21,203 bases of DNA from a virus. The stretch lies in IMG/VR virus record IMGVR_UViG_3300048550_000453, positions 1-21,203 of that record. One strand, 5' to 3'. Position numbers and translations under genes: made by a program. The notes under the pieces are model-generated. The model had not been told where the DNA came from. It made no database searches and worked only from the letters and a program-made list of their open reading frames with translations. Within the stretch, counting starts at the first letter, position 1. Each line of letters opens with the position of its first letter. Shown one piece after another: positions 374 to 17,862 of the stretch.

Positions 374-1864
374 ATGGCATGGTATAACAATCTTTTTAAT
401 AGAAGTCCAAAGAAATCACAATCACTAAAAAGGAGAGGATATACTGCTGCAAGTGGAGGCAGATTATTTTCTGACTTTTACACAACATCCACATCTGCAG
501 ATGCAGAAATAAAAAACAATTTAAGAATATTAAGAGATAGGGCTAGAGACTTAGCTAGAAACGATCCATATGTTAATAGATATTTAAACTTAATGATTTC
601 TAATGTTGTTGGACACCATGGAATTAAAATTAGTTCAAAAGCAAGAAATGACGACGGTTCTTTAGATATGCTTGCTAATCAAAAAATTGAATTAGCATTT
701 AAGCAATGGTCACAAAAAGGAAACTGTACTTTAAATGGTAGGTTTTCATTTTTAGATTGCCAAAAAATGTTTATTGAAGCTTTAGCTAGAGATGGTGAGG
801 TTTTAGTAAGGCATATTAAAACAAACTCAAATCCTTTTGGTTATGCTTTACAGTTTTTAGAAGCAGATCATTTAGATGAAAAATTAAACGATACAAATCC
901 TAAGACTGGTAACAAAATTAAAATGGGAATCGAGTATGATAAAAATGATAAAGCTATTGCTTATCATCTTTATAAAGAACATCCTTATGATCAAGCTTAT
1001 TATAACGAAAATAAATATATAAGAATTCCTGCTAGCGAAATTATACACGCATATATACCAACAAGGCCAGAACAAAGAAGAGGAGTTACTATGATAGCTC
1101 CTGCTATGCCTAATTTGAAAATGCTTAATGGTTATTTAGAAGCAGAGATTGTTGCAGCTCGAGTGTCAGCATCCAAAATGGGCTTTTTTACATCGCCAGA
1201 TGGAGATGGTTATGTTGGTGAAGATTATATGAATGAATTCTCTCCTATAATGAATGCAAGTGCAGGTACTTTCGAGCAGCTTCCTGCTGGAATGGATTTT
1301 AAGGCTTTTGATCCAAATCATCCAAACTCTGCATTCGAAAACTTTACAACACAAGTTTTAAGAAGTATTGCATCTGGTTTAAATATTTCTTACCATGCTT
1401 TAACAAATGATTTAACAAGTATTAATTACAGTTCAATAAGACATGGTGCATTAGAAGATAGAGCAATGTTTCAAATATACCAACAATTTGTAATAGAGCA
1501 TTTTATGAAACCTATCTTTCATAAGTGGTTTGATATGTCTATTGCAAGTGGTATGATAAGTTTGCCTATTAGTAAGTTTGATAAATTTTATAATTCTATA
1601 ACATTTATACCTAGATCTTGGTCTTGGATTGATCCACTTAAAGAGCAACAAGCTAATGTAGCGGGTTTAAGTGCAGGTATAACAACATATGCAGATATAT
1701 CAGCAGCATATGGTAGAGATCCAGAAGAGTTATTTGAACAACATGAAAGAGAGTCAAAACTTGCTGAGCAATACGGTATTAAAACTGCATTCCAACCATT
1801 TGGTTCAAAATTACCTGTAGAAGCTACTATAAGTGGCGGTCAAAACGAAGAAGAAGATGGCTAG
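374..1864 (+). CDS. Portal protein, lambda gpB family
   Basis: This 496-residue protein is a portal of the lambda gpB type (Pfam Phage_portal_2). The portal is the dodecameric ring at one head vertex through which terminase pumps DNA and to which the connector attaches. Supporting segments are the N-terminal RDRARDLARNDPYVNRYLNL block (about residues 52-71), FLEADHLDE (about 161-169), IHAYIPTRPEQRRGVTMIAP (about 224-243), and SIASGLNISYHALTNDLTSI followed by NYSSIR (about 332-357). These match the order of conserved blocks in the family, and the length is normal. There is no clear SD before the ATG; translation probably continues from the upstream gene one base away. The 3' end overlaps the start of the capsid polyprotein by 8 bases. 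Confidence 0.93.
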   Translation: MAWYNNLFNRSPKKSQSLKRRGYTAASGGRLFSDFYTTSTSADAEIKNNLRILRDRARDLARNDPYVNRYLNLMISNVVGHHGIKISSKARNDDGSLDMLANQKIELAFKQWSQKGNCTLNGRFSFLDCQKMFIEALARDGEVLVRHIKTNSNPFGYALQFLEADHLDEKLNDTNPKTGNKIKMGIEYDKNDKAIAYHLYKEHPYDQAYYNENKYIRIPASEIIHAYIPTRPEQRRGVTMIAPAMPNLKMLNGYLEAEIVAARVSASKMGFFTSPDGDGYVGEDYMNEFSPIMNASAGTFEQLPAGMDFKAFDPNHPNSAFENFTTQVLRSIASGLNISYHALTNDLTSINYSSIRHGALEDRAMFQIYQQFVIEHFMKPIFHKWFDMSIASGMISLPISKFDKFYNSITFIPRSWSWIDPLKEQQANVAGLSAGITTYADISAAYGRDPEELFEQHERESKLAEQYGIKTAFQPFGSKLPVEATISGGQNEEEDG

Positions 1865-4358
1865 ACCAAATGCAGGTATGAAGTCAGAAGCTCAAAAGGG
1901 CTTAGACTGGCGTGAAGAATTTGGCAGAGGTGGTACTAGAGTTGGTGCCGTAAGAGCAAGGCAAATAGTGGCTGGTGAAAATCTTTCAGATGAAACTATT
2001 AAAAGAATGTTTAGTTTTTTTTCTAGACATGAAGTTGATAAAAAAGCCGAAGGTTTTAGTCCTGGTGAAAAAGGTTATCCTTCTAATGGAAGAATAGCTT
2101 GGGCATTATGGGGCGGAGACGCAGGATATAGTTGGTCAAGAAAATTGGTAAATAAAATGAAAAATGAAGAAGATAGAGCGGCGCCTAACGCATTAAGTGT
2201 AGGAGATTTTGTAAGCTGGGATAATCCGGGTGGAAGAGCTAAAGGTAAAATTACAAAAGTAGCAAGAGATGGAAAAATTAATGTACCAGGTACAGATTTC
2301 TCTATTACAGGTACTCCAGATGATCCTGCTGCATTAATAAGAGTTTATAGAAGTGGTGAACCTACTGATACACAAGTTGGTCATAAGTTTAGTACTCTAA
2401 ACAAAATTAGCCCAATAAGGGGTTTAAACGATTTCAATTCAAATGAATTGGAAGTACATCCAGTAGAAAATACTGAGGAGAAAACTATGTTAAAAGAAGA
2501 TAGACATATCCTTAGCGTTTCTGAAACCGATAGCTCTGTAGTTATTGAGTTTGAAAAACATGAGGATGTAAATCAAGAAGATGATGAAGAAAGATTAATT
2601 GATACTGAAATAGAGTATCGAACTTATGATTTTAGAAAAGGTCTAATTGATGAGGAAGAAAGAAGGGTTCGTATAGGAGTGTCCTCCGAAGAGCCAGTTG
2701 AGAGAAATTTCGGGATGGAAATTTTGTCTCACAATGCTGAAGATATAGATATGGAATTTATGTCTTCAGGTAGAGCACCATTATTGCTTGATCATGATAT
2801 GACTAAGCAGATTGGTGTTGTTGAAGAATATAAACTTGATGAGACAGCAAAAAGGACAGTTGCTGTAGTTAGATTTGGTAGATCTGACCTAGCTCGTGAA
2901 GTTTTTCAGGATGTAGCCGACGGAATCAAACAAAATATTTCTGTTGGTTATAGAGTAAATAAACTGAACAAAGACAAAGACAAAGATGGCTATTATAGAG
3001 CTAGTTGGACTCCAATGGAAGCAAGCATAGTATCTATACCAGCTGATCAATCTAAAGTTGTTGGAGTTGGACGTTCAAAATCATTTAAGGAAATAAAAAT
3101 GAGCGAAGTAAAAAACGAAGTTAATCAAGAGATTAACGTTGAAGAAGTTAGAGCTCAATCTGTTGCAGAAGCAAAAGCAGAATTTAAAAGAAACTCAAAA
3201 GAGATTTTAGATTTAGCTGCAAGACACAACAGAAGAGATCTAGCAGATAAAGCTATTTCCGAAGGTAATTCTGTTGAAGAATTTAGAGGCATTTTGTTGG
3301 AAAATATTTCTAACGATCAGCCTTTAGAGACTCCTGAAATTGGAATGACTCCTAAGGAAGTAAAAAGATTTAGTTTGGTAAAAGCTATTAATGCATTAGC
3401 TAATCCAACTGATCGTAGAGCGCAAGAAGAAGCCGCATTCGAATTCGAATGTTCAGCTGAGGCTGCTAAAAGATATGGCACAACATCACAAGGTGTTATG
3501 CTTCCACCAGAAGTTCTAGGAAACTGGAAACGTGATATTAACACTTCAGATGATTCAGCTTTAATCGCTGAAGACTTCAGAGGTCAAGATTTCATTGACG
3601 TTCTTAGAAATGAATCATCAGTCATGAGAGCTGGCGCGACTATGCTACAAGGACTTAAAGGCGATGTTGTCATACCTAAGAAAACTGGTACTTCAAGCCC
3701 AGGATGGATTGCAACTGAAGGCGGAGATTCTGCTGAAAGTGAATTCACAGTAGGTCAAGTTACTATGAGCCCTAAAACTGTTGGTGCTCATACAGAAGCT
3801 TCAAGACTTATGCTTATGCAATCATCATTAGATGTTGAAAATCTAATTAGAGATGATTTAACAAGATCAATAGCAACATCTATTGACCTTGGTGCATTAG
3901 CTGGTTCAGGATCTTCAGGCCAACCAACTGGTATTGCCAACACATCTGGTATTAACACAACAACTTTTGCTGCAGCTGTCCCAACATGGGCTGAGCTTGT
4001 AGCTATGGAATCTGCAGTAGCAAATGATAATGCGCTACTTGGTTCTTTAAGTTATATTATGAGACCAGCTGATTATGGCAACTTAAAAACTGTTGAAAAA
4101 GCTACTAACACAGCTCAATTTATTGTTGAGCCAGGTGGTAATGTCAACGGATATAATGTTGTTAAATCAAATCAAGTTACTGCCGGTGATTACTACTTCG
4201 GTAACTTTGCAGACCTATTAATAGGTATGTATGGTGGTTTGGACATCTTAGTTGATCCTTACTCAAACTCAAAATCAGGAACAATTAGAATTGTTGCTTT
4301 ACAAACTGTTGATTGTGCGGTTCGCCACGCGGTTAGCTTCTGTAAATCATCAGACTAA
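1857..4358 (+). CDS. Accessory module - S78 prohead protease - HK97 major capsid fusion
   Basis: This single ORF holds three units; residue numbers here count from an upstream in-frame GTG at 1833. Residues about 9-115 form a W/R/G-rich module with GRGGTRVGAVRARQI, FFSRHEVD and GYPSNGRIAWALWGGDAG. Residues about 120-192 look like a small SH3/Tudor-like barrel (VGDFVSWDNPGGRAKGKI). Residues about 219-420 are an S78 prohead protease, with candidate catalytic His321 in LLLDHDM and Ser370 in NISVGYRV, plus the EASIVSIPAD block at 396-405. Residues 423-841 are an HK97-fold capsid subunit: a helical delta/scaffold segment to about residue 500, then the shell domain. I prefer the ATG at 1857 over the GTG at 1833 because it overlaps the portal by only 8 bases and follows a purine-rich GAAGAAGAAG. 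The protease would cut the scaffold segment off during head maturation. Internal starts at 2487 and 3099 may give separate products. Confidence 0.92.
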   Translation: MARPNAGMKSEAQKGLDWREEFGRGGTRVGAVRARQIVAGENLSDETIKRMFSFFSRHEVDKKAEGFSPGEKGYPSNGRIAWALWGGDAGYSWSRKLVNKMKNEEDRAAPNALSVGDFVSWDNPGGRAKGKITKVARDGKINVPGTDFSITGTPDDPAALIRVYRSGEPTDTQVGHKFSTLNKISPIRGLNDFNSNELEVHPVENTEEKTMLKEDRHILSVSETDSSVVIEFEKHEDVNQEDDEERLIDTEIEYRTYDFRKGLIDEEERRVRIGVSSEEPVERNFGMEILSHNAEDIDMEFMSSGRAPLLLDHDMTKQIGVVEEYKLDETAKRTVAVVRFGRSDLAREVFQDVADGIKQNISVGYRVNKLNKDKDKDGYYRASWTPMEASIVSIPADQSKVVGVGRSKSFKEIKMSEVKNEVNQEINVEEVRAQSVAEAKAEFKRNSKEILDLAARHNRRDLADKAISEGNSVEEFRGILLENISNDQPLETPEIGMTPKEVKRFSLVKAINALANPTDRRAQEEAAFEFECSAEAAKRYGTTSQGVMLPPEVLGNWKRDINTSDDSALIAEDFRGQDFIDVLRNESSVMRAGATMLQGLKGDVVIPKKTGTSSPGWIATEGGDSAESEFTVGQVTMSPKTVGAHTEASRLMLMQSSLDVENLIRDDLTRSIATSIDLGALAGSGSSGQPTGIANTSGINTTTFAAAVPTWAELVAMESAVANDNALLGSLSYIMRPADYGNLKTVEKATNTAQFIVEPGGNVNGYNVVKSNQVTAGDYYFGNFADLLIGMYGGLDILVDPYSNSKSGTIRIVALQTVDCAVRHAVSFCKSSD
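2475..2489 (+). promoter_or_regulatory. Internal SD and in-frame ATG ahead of protease domain
   Basis: GAGGAG at 2475-2480 lies six bases before an in-frame ATG at 2487. The ATG encodes residue 219 of the fused ORF (MLKEDRHILSVSE), exactly where a stand-alone S78 prohead protease would begin. A product from here would be a 623-residue protease-capsid protein. The spacing and SD are better than those at the ORF's own 5' end. Use in the cell is inferred. Confidence 0.6.
3087..3101 (+). promoter_or_regulatory. Internal SD and in-frame ATG ahead of capsid domain
   Basis: AAGGA at 3087-3091 lies seven bases before an in-frame ATG at 3099. The ATG encodes residue 423 (MSEVKNEVNQ), just after the last protease block (VVGVGRSK) and at the first residue of the helical delta domain. 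The product would be 419 residues, a normal length for an unprocessed HK97-type capsid subunit. It is the natural way to make capsid in large excess over protease. Lambda C/Nu3 is the classic precedent for an in-frame internal start in a head gene. Confidence 0.65.
3099..4358 (+). CDS. Predicted stand-alone major capsid product (nested)
   Basis: This is the nested 419-residue reading of the capsid part of the larger ORF, starting at the internal ATG with SD AAGGA. Its first 75-80 residues are highly charged and helical (delta domain, an internal scaffold removed by the protease). The block IGMTPKEVKRFSLVKAINAL is a likely neighbourhood of the mature N-terminus. The shell domain follows, with GYNVVKSNQVTAGDYYFGNF and a C-terminal IRIVALQTVDCAVRHAVSF strand typical of HK97 subunits. 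Whether the subunit is made this way, or only released by proteolysis of the fusion, cannot be decided from sequence. Confidence 0.55.
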   Translation: MSEVKNEVNQEINVEEVRAQSVAEAKAEFKRNSKEILDLAARHNRRDLADKAISEGNSVEEFRGILLENISNDQPLETPEIGMTPKEVKRFSLVKAINALANPTDRRAQEEAAFEFECSAEAAKRYGTTSQGVMLPPEVLGNWKRDINTSDDSALIAEDFRGQDFIDVLRNESSVMRAGATMLQGLKGDVVIPKKTGTSSPGWIATEGGDSAESEFTVGQVTMSPKTVGAHTEASRLMLMQSSLDVENLIRDDLTRSIATSIDLGALAGSGSSGQPTGIANTSGINTTTFAAAVPTWAELVAMESAVANDNALLGSLSYIMRPADYGNLKTVEKATNTAQFIVEPGGNVNGYNVVKSNQVTAGDYYFGNFADLLIGMYGGLDILVDPYSNSKSGTIRIVALQTVDCAVRHAVSFCKSSD

Positions 4359-5832: not shown

Positions 5833-5991
5833 ATGAAAATGATTAGTCCAGATGGAAAAGTTTCTATAGACGCTCATCCTTCAAAGGTTGGGTCTTTATT
5901 GAATAAGGGTTGGAAAGAAGAAGCAGCCCAAGTAATTAAATCTTCTTCTAAAAAGTCGAAAGACGAGGTAATTGAAAATGGCGACTCATAA
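5833..5991 (+). CDS. 52-residue protein of unknown function
   Basis: A short gene that would be missed by usual length cut-offs. It starts at an ATG six bases after a strong SD (AGGAG, 5822-5826) and encodes 52 residues (MKMISPDGKVSIDAHPSKVG, then KGWKEEAAQ and a Ser/Lys-rich tail). It ends at a TAA at 5989-5991 and overlaps the tail tube start by 14 bases. The 'SPDGK....HPSKV..LL..GW' pattern resembles small proteins encoded just before tail tube or after capsid genes in other phages. It is also loosely like the 70-residue protein at 4411: a short ordered N-terminus plus a Lys-rich tail. The function is unknown. Confidence 0.7.
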   Translation: MKMISPDGKVSIDAHPSKVGSLLNKGWKEEAAQVIKSSSKKSKDEVIENGDS

Positions 5992-13254: not shown

Positions 13255-16200
13255 ATGGCACAACACGATTACAACCTAGCCAATCAAAGTGGAGCTGACT
13301 TCAGAGCTGATTTAAACAATGCTCTTGCAGCTATAGCCACAGTTAATTCAGGGGCTACCGAGCCTTCAACTACTTTTGCCCATCAGTTGTGGGTAGATAC
13401 AGCAAACAACGTATTAAAAATAAGAAATGCTGCTAATAATGACTGGATTACTTTTGGCGTAAGCATTAGCTCATCCAATGTGCTTACAGGTAATTTAACA
13501 GGCGATGTAACAGGTAATGTAACTGGCAATGTTACAGGTAATGTTACTGGAGACCTAACAGGTAATGCTGACACAGCAACTACATTAGAAACAGCAAGAA
13601 CCATATCTCTATCAGGAGATGTTGTTGGTTCAGTTTCTTTTGATGGTAGTGCTAATGTAGATATATCTACAGTTGTTCAAATTAACTCTATTACTCTTGG
13701 AACTGACACCACTGGCGATTATGTTGAGAGCATATCTGGTGGCACTGGCGTAACAATTACAGGTGGAACAGGCGAAAGCTCAACACCAGTTGTTGCTATT
13801 GGTCAGGCTGTTGCTGTAACAAGTGATGTTACTTTTAACACCATTACAGCAAGTAATGAGTTTATAGGTGATTTAGAGGGTGGTATTAGGTTTAACGCTA
13901 AAGCTGATGGTGCTTTATCTGCTGGAGATGTGGTTTATATATCTGGAGTTTCTGGAGATGTGCCAACAGTAGCTCAAGCAAAAGCTGATGATGCATCTAA
14001 GATGCCTGCTTTTGGATTGGCTTTATCTAATGCAAATGATAATGCTGCTTTGCAGGTTGTAACTTTTGGAACAATAGAGAATTTAGATACTTCTGGAGTT
14101 TCAGAGGGTCAGATTCTATATGTATCTACAACAGCAGGAGCTTATACAACAACAGCACCAACAGGCGAAAGCTCACAAATACAAAACATAGGTAAGGTTA
14201 TTAGAAGCCATGCTTCTGCTGGATCAATTAAAGTAGGTGGTGCTGGCAGATCAAATGCAACACCTAACCTAGACAATGGCAAAATATTTATAGGCAATGG
14301 CTCTAACCAATCAACAACATCAACATTAGATACTTCTATTGTTCCAGAGAACACTAACCTCTACTGGACTACAGCTAGGGGCGAATCTATGTTTGATACT
14401 AGATTGGCTACCAAAGACACTGGAGATTTAGCAGAGGGCTCTAATCTTTATTACACCACTGCAAGAGTTAATTCAGATTTTGATACTAGACTTGCAACAA
14501 AAGACACTGGTGATTTGGCAGAAGGCTCAAATCTTTACTATACAACTGCAAGGGTTAATTCTGATTTTGACACTAGATTAGCCACAAAAGACACAGATGA
14601 TTTAACCGAAGGTACTACTAATTTATATTACACATCAGGTAGAGCAAATACAGATTTTGATACTAGACTTGCAACCAAGTCTACAACTAATTTAGCAGAA
14701 GGAACTAATCTTTATTACACAGATGCTAGATTTGATACAAGACTTGCTACTAAAGATACTGATGATTTAACAGAAGGCTCTAACCTTTACTATACACAAG
14801 CTAGATTTGATTCTGCTTTTGGCAATAAGACAACCAACGATTTAACTGAAAACACTAATTTATATTACACAGATGCAAGGGCTAACTCTGCTATTGATTC
14901 GAGAGTTACAAAAACATTTGTAGATAATTTAGGAGTTATAGCTGGTAGCGTACAAGCTGACAGCGTTGCTTTAGGCACAGATACTACAGGCAATTATATT
15001 CAAACAATTACAGGAACTGCTAACAAGATTACAGTTACAGGCTCAGGCAGTGAATCTGCTGATGTGACTTTAACTTTGCCAGATGATGTGCAAATAGCAG
15101 ATAGCTTAACAGTGGCAGGAAATTTAACTGTTAATGGAACGCTAACCTCATTAGATACTACAAATTTAGATATAGAAGATAATCTGTTCCAGCTTAATGC
15201 AGGACTAACAGGCAGCCCAGTAAATGATTCTGGTATGTTGATTAACAGGGGTAATCAAGATAATGGCATCTTTATGTGGGATGAGTCAGCAGACAAATTT
15301 ACACTAGGTCTTACTACAGCCGATGGCAGTGCAACAGGAAATATTACACTTAACTCACTTGGTACTTTAGTTGCTAATATTGAAGGTAATGTTACGGGCA
15401 ATGTAACTGGTACAGTTTCAAGCCTATCTAATCATGATACTGCTGATTTAACTGAAGGAGCTAATCTTTATTACACAGATGCAAGAGCAGATGCTAGAGT
15501 TAATCTACAAACTGGGGCAAATTTAGATTTAAGCTCTAAATCCACATCTGACTTATCAGAAGGCACTAATGAATATTTCACTACAGCCAGAGCAAGAAGT
15601 TCTATCTCTGCATCTGGTGATATTGCTTATAACAGCTCAACAGGTGTTATTAGCTTTACAGCATCAGCAGCACCAGTAACCAGCGTTAATACACAAACTG
15701 GAGCTGTGGTTTTAGATACTGATGATATTGCAGAAGGTTTAAGCAATTTATATTACACAAGTGCAAGATTTGACTCTGCTTTTTCTGGTAAATCTACAAC
15801 TAATTTATCAGAGGGAACTAACCTCTATTACACAGATGCAAGAGCAGATGCCAGAGTTAATTTGCAAACTGGTTCTAATTTAGACCTAAGCTCTAAATCA
15901 ACCAGCGATTTAACTGAAGGCACTAATCTTTATTACACTGATGCTAGATTCGATACTAGACTAGCAACCAAAGACACAGATGATGTCTCAGAAGGTTCAA
16001 GCAATCTTTATTACACAGATGCTAGAAGCAGAGCTGCTGTTAGCGTATCAGGAGATTTAGCTTACAATTCTGGAACTGGTGTATTTTCCTTTACCGAGAG
16101 AACTGATGCAGAAGTACAAGCATTAATAACTGCTGGCACTGGTGTTACAGTTAGCAGTGGTCAGGTTTCTATTGGTCAATCAGTAGCCACATCAGCAAGC

Positions 16201-17862
16201 CCTACATTTGCCAACATGACATTAAATGGCACAGGATCAATTAAAGTTCCAAGTGGCACTACAGCACAAAGAGATGGCTCACCTGCAAATGGAATGTTCA
16301 GATACAACTCTGAAGATGCACAATTTGAAGGTTATGCTGATGGTGCTTGGGGTGCTATTGCAGGTTCAGGTGGTGGTGCTTCAGCAATGGAGACCAGCAA
16401 CTTTACAGGCGATGGTTCTACAACTGCATTTACATTAAGCTCAAGCGTTTCCGATGAAGATAATTTATTAGCTTTTATAGAAGGTGTTTACCAAAACAAA
16501 GCTGATTATGTTGCTTCAGGAACTACCATAACTTTTGATACAGCTCCTGCTAATGGCAGAAACATTGTTGTACATCATGTTAAATCTAATATTAGTGGCA
16601 GTAACGTCATACTTAATTCATTTACAGGCGATGGTTCAGATACTGCCTTTACACTATCAACAGCACCACAATCAGAGAATAACACTCAGGTGCACTTAAA
16701 TGGTGTTTATCAAAACAAATCAACTTATACAGTTTCTGGAACAACTTTAACTTTTGATGCAGCCCCTGCTAATGGTGTTGCTATTGAAGTTATTATGTTT
16801 ACTCAAACACAAATAAATGAGGTTGGTGATGGAACAGTTACAACCGCCAAATTGGCAGACGATGCAGTTACCTCAGCTAAGATTGCAGACAATCCTGCTT
16901 TTAGTGGCAATGAATCTATAACAGTTCCTTCAGGAACTACAGCACAGAGACCATCTTCAGCAGCAAATGGCATGGTTCGTTACAATACAACAGATAACAA
17001 GCTAGAGTCTTATGTAAATGGTGGTTGGATTGATTTAGGGACTCGGTTTGTAGCTGCTGGCGGAACAGAAGTAAGCTCTGGAGGATATAAATATCATACT
17101 TTTACAACTTCAGGTACTTTTTCTGTTTCCGCAGGAGAAACAACTGTTGAATATTTAATTGTTGCTGGTGGAGGTGGAGGGGGCTCTCGTCATGGTGGCG
17201 GTGGTGGAGCTGGTGGCTATCAAACTGGATCAGCTATTGCAACTGCTGGAAGTTACACAGTTACAGTTGGAGCTGGTGGAGCTGGTGGCGTTAAAGATAC
17301 AACAGCTTCAGGCGATGGTGGTGATTCTTCTGTGTTTAGCGTTACTTCAGCAGGCGGTGGAGGTGGTGGTGCTTTTAGCATAAGACAAGCAGCAAACTCA
17401 GGTGGCTCAGGTGGTGGGGCTGCAAATATAGGAGGAGGAACAACATCAGGTGCTTCAGGTACAACAGGTCAGGGCAATGATGGTGGTGATGTAACAAGTG
17501 GGGGTGCAGATTGGGCAGGTGCTGGTGGCGGTGGAGCTACAGCAGCAGGCGGAGGTTCTACAGGGGGAACAGGAGTATCAGGTGGTGATGGTGGAACAGG
17601 ATCAAATTCTGTAGCTACTTGGGCAACCGCAACATCAACAGGAGATAGTGGATATTACGCTGGCGGTGGTGGCGGTGGTGGATCACACACCAATGGGAGT
17701 GGTGGTTCAGGCGGTTCAGGTGGTGGCAGTGATGGAACTGCTTTATTAGATGGAGATGCATCAAATGCTACTGTTAATACTGGCGGTGGTGGTGGTGGCT
17801 CTCGTGATGATGATGGTGGTAATGGTGGTTCAGGAATAGTAATTTTGAGGTATGCGGAGTAA
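13255..17862 (+). CDS. Large repeat-built tail fibre with Gly-rich C-terminus
   Basis: A 1535-residue fibre. Residues 1-68 form an N-terminal attachment domain (MAQHDYNLANQSGADFRADL, then LWVDTANNVLKIRNAANNDW). Residues 77-104 are seven perfect tetrapeptide repeats (L/V-T-G-N/D). Residues about 220-335 are a globular beta region (GDVVYISGVSGDVPTVAQAK). Residues about 365-550 and 725-930 are arrays of a roughly 20-30-residue unit around NLYYTDAR, 13 copies in all. Residues about 1043-1190 hold two copies of an FTGDGxxTAFTLS...GVYQNK...TFD.APANG domain. Residues about 1295-1535 are a Gly-rich tip starting EYLIVAGGGGGGSRHGG and ending GSGIVILRYAE, matching the Gly-rich adhesin domains of phage fibres. 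It is very probably a trimer and a receptor-binding protein. Confidence 0.88.
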   Translation: MAQHDYNLANQSGADFRADLNNALAAIATVNSGATEPSTTFAHQLWVDTANNVLKIRNAANNDWITFGVSISSSNVLTGNLTGDVTGNVTGNVTGNVTGDLTGNADTATTLETARTISLSGDVVGSVSFDGSANVDISTVVQINSITLGTDTTGDYVESISGGTGVTITGGTGESSTPVVAIGQAVAVTSDVTFNTITASNEFIGDLEGGIRFNAKADGALSAGDVVYISGVSGDVPTVAQAKADDASKMPAFGLALSNANDNAALQVVTFGTIENLDTSGVSEGQILYVSTTAGAYTTTAPTGESSQIQNIGKVIRSHASAGSIKVGGAGRSNATPNLDNGKIFIGNGSNQSTTSTLDTSIVPENTNLYWTTARGESMFDTRLATKDTGDLAEGSNLYYTTARVNSDFDTRLATKDTGDLAEGSNLYYTTARVNSDFDTRLATKDTDDLTEGTTNLYYTSGRANTDFDTRLATKSTTNLAEGTNLYYTDARFDTRLATKDTDDLTEGSNLYYTQARFDSAFGNKTTNDLTENTNLYYTDARANSAIDSRVTKTFVDNLGVIAGSVQADSVALGTDTTGNYIQTITGTANKITVTGSGSESADVTLTLPDDVQIADSLTVAGNLTVNGTLTSLDTTNLDIEDNLFQLNAGLTGSPVNDSGMLINRGNQDNGIFMWDESADKFTLGLTTADGSATGNITLNSLGTLVANIEGNVTGNVTGTVSSLSNHDTADLTEGANLYYTDARADARVNLQTGANLDLSSKSTSDLSEGTNEYFTTARARSSISASGDIAYNSSTGVISFTASAAPVTSVNTQTGAVVLDTDDIAEGLSNLYYTSARFDSAFSGKSTTNLSEGTNLYYTDARADARVNLQTGSNLDLSSKSTSDLTEGTNLYYTDARFDTRLATKDTDDVSEGSSNLYYTDARSRAAVSVSGDLAYNSGTGVFSFTERTDAEVQALITAGTGVTVSSGQVSIGQSVATSASPTFANMTLNGTGSIKVPSGTTAQRDGSPANGMFRYNSEDAQFEGYADGAWGAIAGSGGGASAMETSNFTGDGSTTAFTLSSSVSDEDNLLAFIEGVYQNKADYVASGTTITFDTAPANGRNIVVHHVKSNISGSNVILNSFTGDGSDTAFTLSTAPQSENNTQVHLNGVYQNKSTYTVSGTTLTFDAAPANGVAIEVIMFTQTQINEVGDGTVTTAKLADDAVTSAKIADNPAFSGNESITVPSGTTAQRPSSAANGMVRYNTTDNKLESYVNGGWIDLGTRFVAAGGTEVSSGGYKYHTFTTSGTFSVSAGETTVEYLIVAGGGGGGSRHGGGGGAGGYQTGSAIATAGSYTVTVGAGGAGGVKDTTASGDGGDSSVFSVTSAGGGGGGAFSIRQAANSGGSGGGAANIGGGTTSGASGTTGQGNDGGDVTSGGADWAGAGGGGATAAGGGSTGGTGVSGGDGGTGSNSVATWATATSTGDSGYYAGGGGGGGSHTNGSGGSGGSGGGSDGTALLDGDASNATVNTGGGGGGSRDDDGGNGGSGIVILRYAE
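13483..13566 (+). repeat. Seven 12-bp tandem repeats in fibre gene
   Basis: Seven consecutive 12-base units encode LTGN, LTGD, VTGN, VTGN, VTGN, VTGD, LTGN with silent variation (for example GTAACAGGTAAT and GTTACTGGAGAC). A second mini-set (EGNVTGNVTGTV) occurs near 15385-15420. Repeats of this kind form regular beta structure in trimeric fibres of marine T4-like phages. Confidence 0.85.
14392..14565 (+). repeat. Tandem 87-bp repeat, identical protein, silent differences only
   Basis: Two adjacent 87-base units (14392-14478 and 14479-14565) encode the same 29 residues, from FDTRLATKDTGDL to TTARVNSD. By my alignment they differ at 13 bases, all synonymous. A third, diverged copy begins at 14566. 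Confidence 0.9.
17167..17860 (+). repeat. G-rich block encoding the Gly-rich fibre tip
   Basis: The coding strand carries many GGTGGNGG runs, such as the stretch at 17167-17183, in an otherwise AT-rich genome. The block encodes poly-Gly segments. Consecutive GG tracts at 1-base spacing could form two-layer G-quadruplexes on the + strand or mRNA. Confidence 0.7.

Follow-up and report, generated by a model that had tools for sequence, protein, structure and literature searches.

Phage lambda and the herpesviruses both make assembly proteins from in-frame nested genes. In lambda, an internal start within the protease gene C gives Nu3, a shorter product with the same C-terminus. Herpesvirus UL26/UL26.5 and cytomegalovirus UL80 encode a protease-scaffold protein together with shorter, in-frame and C-terminally identical products, and the cytomegalovirus set has more than two tiers. 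HK97 keeps its protease and capsid as two genes (gp4/gp5). Single-ORF fusions of the two are also known, and some phage records annotate them as protease plus capsid, one product. In-frame nesting and protease-capsid fusion are thus each familiar; conserved internal starts within the fusions were not found in the annotations and open papers examined. Specifically, no conserved internal capsid start was annotated in the fusion records examined, and no report of nested starts in such fusions was found in the open-access literature, while subscription papers (VP882, phiHAP-1, S-CBS) may hold virion N-terminal data. The word “protease” is absent from the R4C (PMC10276861) and CRP-822 papers.

The window analysed here is a 21.2-kb virus record (21,203 nt) that carries a lambda-family portal gene (374-1864) and then head and tail genes; the capsid ORF described next and its parts lie on the + strand. 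Overlapping the portal stop, a marine phage ORF (1857-4358) is open throughout and encodes 833 aa, consisting of a helical N-terminal module, a TUDOR domain, an S78 protease, a delta domain and an HK97-fold capsid. The helical module (residues 1-105, 1857-2171) is phrog_2859-like by PHROG match; a fold search of its model against the PDB gave no match at E <= 0.001 and weak Tudor-like matches only. Pfam places an Hva1_TUDOR domain at residues 116-167 (2202-2357), the Peptidase_S78 core at residues 305-403 (2769-3065; 20.4 bits, just under the curated cut-off of 21) and Phage_capsid at residues 569-830 (3561-4346). His313 and Ser362 of the protease core are invariant among relatives. With S78 protease and Phage_capsid domains in a single ORF, this is the fused form of the HK97-type module, and phrog_617 and phrog_4523 match both its protease and its capsid parts. 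The order of S78 protease, then delta and capsid, is that of HK97 gp4/gp5 and of the fusions in ep3, PPpW-3 and Murka. In an AlphaFold model informed by 32 relatives (mean pLDDT 67), confidence is low at residues 188-261 (2418-2639) and 396-432 (3042-3152), both predicted to be disordered linkers, and at residues 560-576 (3534-3584), between delta and capsid. The last is probably the maturation cleavage zone; the R4C shell model starts at the equivalent of about residue 566. Farther along the window, the 1535-aa protein encoded at 13255-17862 is probably a tail fibre, with many TTNLAEGTNLYYTDAR-type repeats and an end rich in Gly.

A preliminary description had read the capsid ORF as three in-frame products of 833, 623 and 419 aa, and its coordinates and lengths were right. 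The full ORF forms tier 1. Tier 2 (protease-delta-capsid, 623 aa, 2487-4358) begins at ATG 2487, which the Shine-Dalgarno (SD) sequence GAGGAG (2475-2480) precedes by six bases, and tier 3 (delta-capsid, 419 aa, 3099-4358) begins at ATG 3099, seven bases after AAGGA (3087-3091); both placements were as described. Each internal start therefore has its own SD and shares the frame and the C-terminus of the whole. The proposed coincidence with domain borders also holds by Pfam and AlphaFold: Met211 (tier 2) lies in linker 188-261, shortly upstream of the first protease strands, and Met415 (tier 3) in linker 396-432, shortly upstream of the first delta helix. A consensus scan for sigma-70-type promoters only found none on the + strand of 1857-4358, with fewer matches than in shuffles.

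The likeness to lambda C/Nu3 lies in a nested start that would give many assembly subunits per protease. In lambda, however, the shared C-terminus is a scaffold, the protease is of the S49 type and the capsid has a separate gene, E, whereas here delta plus capsid form the common C-terminal part, and two starts are internal. We therefore regard the ORF as working like C/Nu3 without being a member of that class, which has a scaffold C-terminus. The herpesvirus sets are alike in using related assembly proteases, but they are made from separate transcripts and their shared part is scaffold, not capsid.

SD strength was scored as duplex energy (kcal/mol) with the anti-SD ACCUCCUUA. ATG 2487 scored -9.2 and ATG 3099 -6.1, which compares with about -6 to -9 for SD-led genes of the same window. 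Among the 104 internal in-frame ATGs of the whole window, ATG 2487 ranks first and ATG 3099 fifth, or fourth of about 103 without ATG 5978. The latter, ranked above 3099, is probably a true gene start; the TTG start listed at 5972 is probably wrong, and ATG 5978 has a GAGG SD (-7.2). On these ranks, and by comparison with the other ATGs of the same ORFs and genomes, we rejected a chance origin of the internal SD-ATG pairs. The start at 1857 scored only -1.0, and because of this poor SD the 833-aa product may be rare. The description of the first start as the weaker one is correct for this genome and does not extend to the group, in which the first start is usually well led by an SD (-4.5 or lower in 59/67 distinct contexts, scored on the strongest candidate Met).

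We then turned to the tier-3 position in relatives. Phage records and two scans of viral contigs together yielded 170 ORFs with the protease-end motif, which reduced to 61 clusters when grouped at 85% capsid identity. In all 61, no more than 35 codons separated the motif from the first ATG downstream, which stood at the end of a linker that varied from 6 to 35 aa and in sequence (FKEIKM, IEVKLM, KGIIM, SEDAM, QRSDPM). An SD core was present in 53 clusters, with a GG-to-ATG distance of 10 nt in 41 of these, and was found in all three codon phases (47/5/1). The median energy was -6.0; first ATGs at other places in these ORFs had a median of -2.1 (Mann-Whitney p about 6e-24, a value that overstates independence since the clusters are related). 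Of the tier-3 sites, 56% had energies of -6 or lower; the share was 1% for capsid ATGs farther downstream and 6% for those in other long ORFs. When synonymous codons were shuffled, the observed mean of -6.15 compared with -3.30, and none of 200 shuffles was as low; taken one sequence at a time, 10/61 sites fell below 0.05 and most were non-significant. The surroundings of the tier-3 ATG were less structured than those of other codons in 55/61.

The same pair occurs in CRP-811, CRP-821 and CRP-406, in E. coli ep3, Salmonella PT1, Enterobacter Arya, Pseudomonas PPpW-3 and Persinger, and in Rhodobacter RcCronus, Dinoroseobacter R4C, Vibrio VP882 and Halomonas phiHAP-1. Weak tier-3 SDs were seen in MQ-4, Murka and Acinetobacter prophages; in the Murka cluster the aligned capsid start probably lies downstream of the first ATG, with a similarly weak SD. 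A genome scan with a narrower alignment gave 13 loci, most with the ATG kept and the SD variable. Vibrio phage XM1, considered as a possible fusion, had an unrelated arrangement. Synechococcus phages had the tier-3 ATG and no SD; SD dependence is lower in cyanobacteria.

These data bear on the idea that the SD-like sequences are not starts at all and instead make ribosomes pause, aiding co-translational folding at domain borders. Pausing of elongation at SD-like sequences is an existing proposal, and both SDs do lie in linkers between domains. However, pausing needs no ATG at a fixed spacing, whereas all clusters preserve the ATG and most of those with an SD core the spacing, and the cyanophages, in retaining the ATG without the SD, do the opposite of what pausing predicts. 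We find this explanation scarcely credible.

The tier-2 comparison was confined to relatives with an RHI motif and covered 26 protease clusters with a Met close upstream of it; three further RHI-motif ORFs had no nearby Met, and one of these (L051) begins at a contig end. An SD of -4.5 or lower and the ATG were kept in 26/26 clusters, whether the upstream extension was about 25 or 340 residues. The observed mean was -7.34, against -3.41 for synonymous shuffles (0/200 as low); in single-sequence tests 8/26 sites fell below 0.05 and most were non-significant. Codon choice follows the SD: these genes prefer GAA over GAG about 4 to 1, yet Glu codons inside the tier-2 SD were GAG 36 times and GAA 7 times (36/43 versus a 21% GAG background), as in NEEEKSM, encoded from AAT GAA GAG GAG. 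Free loss of the SDs or ATGs among homologues, which the preliminary description had named as evidence against nesting, was thus not seen, either at tier 2 or at tier 3, where all 61 clusters kept the ATG and most had a strong SD.

The tier-2 signal admits a narrower version of our explanation, compatible with it for tier 3, in which tier 3 alone is active and tier 2 is kept because it, or an ATG nearby, serves module-free relatives as the gene's own start. Such relatives exist (L002, L007, L024 and L070, with only a short extension before tier 2), and if modules recombine often, the signal could be brought in again each time. However, ORFs with extensions of 270-340 aa before tier 2 (L059, L145, L083) have a strong SD there too, and we judge this version unlikely.

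Several relatives have natural splits in the ORF. Where protease and capsid are separate, the capsid gene begins at the tier-3 position. In contig L066, the TAA that closes the protease ORF overlaps the SD, and the tier-3 ATG opens the capsid ORF; in the more distant phi39:1 and L104, separate upstream and capsid ORFs meet at the tier-3 point with a one-base stop-start overlap. The N-module is separated in CRP-823 and L028, and L002 has no N-module even though its capsid and that of the window are 99% identical. Indel errors in metagenomic contigs can mimic splits, so single cases among these could be errors. The comparison as a whole, conserved SD-ATG pairs and splits at the tier-3 position, strongly supports nested starts.

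The one-base overlaps also make it plausible that the ORF arose by fusion of adjacent genes, and the mature shell needs the C-terminal part only. Accordingly, only the full-length protein might be made, with the protease removing itself and delta, and the internal SD-ATGs might be relics of once separate genes. Relics should decay, whereas in these clusters linker residues and lengths drift while SD, spacing and ATG persist. The portal gene served as a control. Although a strong SD (-8.6) precedes its ATG 1091, only 2/53 clusters keep the Met; the SD-like string often persists there, as expected since it codes for Arg-Gly. On the count of that Met we rejected ATG 1091 as a second nested gene. 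At tiers 2 and 3, judged against this control, the signal is retained beyond what the protein sequence demands.

A second site that argues against relics is the less constrained in-frame ATG bordering the TUDOR domain (2157-2159), which has a weak SD-like GGTAA (-2.8) in the window. Among 24 distinct contexts of this start, 15 had an SD of -4.5 or lower, 8 (the window among them) were weaker and one had no Met. It has decayed in the window lineage and is a strong SD-ATG in some relatives; therefore, border starts can decay here, and tiers 2 and 3 did not. We consider it very unlikely that those two are relics.

In six relatives (L130, L144, L082, L168, L154, L169) an SD-ATG lies directly upstream of TUDOR, with energies of up to -12.1, and is possibly a fourth tier. 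The three tiers originally proposed would thus be no limit for the relatives. The second N-terminal module is itself swapped among relatives (window region 1857-2486; L010, L058, L123): the module fused in frame ahead of the protease is TUDOR, DUF5824 (PF19141) or another. A contig of a Candidatus Onthoplasma MAG (L193:2116-4227) joins a ClpP-like protease to a related capsid; there, too, an SD-like ATG lies close to the fusion point, and this may be an independent case.

We consider it highly probable, on these comparative grounds, that nested starts operate here: one capsid ORF would be translated from two or three in-frame starts, and their relative use would set how much capsid a prohead receives for each protease-capsid subunit. 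For this phage we infer translation from the internal sites, and co-assembly, ratio and cleavage are modelled on HK97 biology. Strong initiation at ATG 3099 would supply the bulk capsid precursor, delta plus capsid; ATG 2487 would provide a protease-delta-capsid subunit. The start at 1857 would contribute a few longer subunits that also bear the helical and TUDOR modules. The capsid domain common to all products would admit them to the same shell, with their N-terminal parts expected to face the prohead interior, as in HK97, so that relative initiation would set the number of enclosed copies of the protease and modules. The protease would then cut off delta and everything N-terminal to it, leaving uniform mature shell subunits. 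The presumed purpose is many capsid subunits per protease.

The R4C virion has 415 MCP copies (PMC10276861), and its chain 8gta covers only residues 362-629 of a 629-aa ORF, where absence from the model is not proof of cleavage. The shell model lacks delta and protease, so N-terminal proteomics of mature virions would not tell the starts apart: should the missing part be removed by cleavage, nothing in a mature virion would reveal which start had been used.

More tentatively, and with considerable doubt, the capsid ORF might be a modular loading platform, in which any module fused in frame ahead of the protease would enter the head attached to a small number of capsid subunits, be released by the protease and perhaps be delivered along with the DNA. 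The nested starts at the borders would then determine how many copies there are of each layer.

Many phage genera have protease-capsid fusions, which pose a stoichiometry problem, hundreds of capsid subunits being needed against few proteases. A conserved internal start, if true, would solve it with a single gene, and the annotated capsid lengths would then be wrong for the main precursor in these phages. The exchange of N-terminal modules points to a natural way in which other proteins could be loaded into heads.
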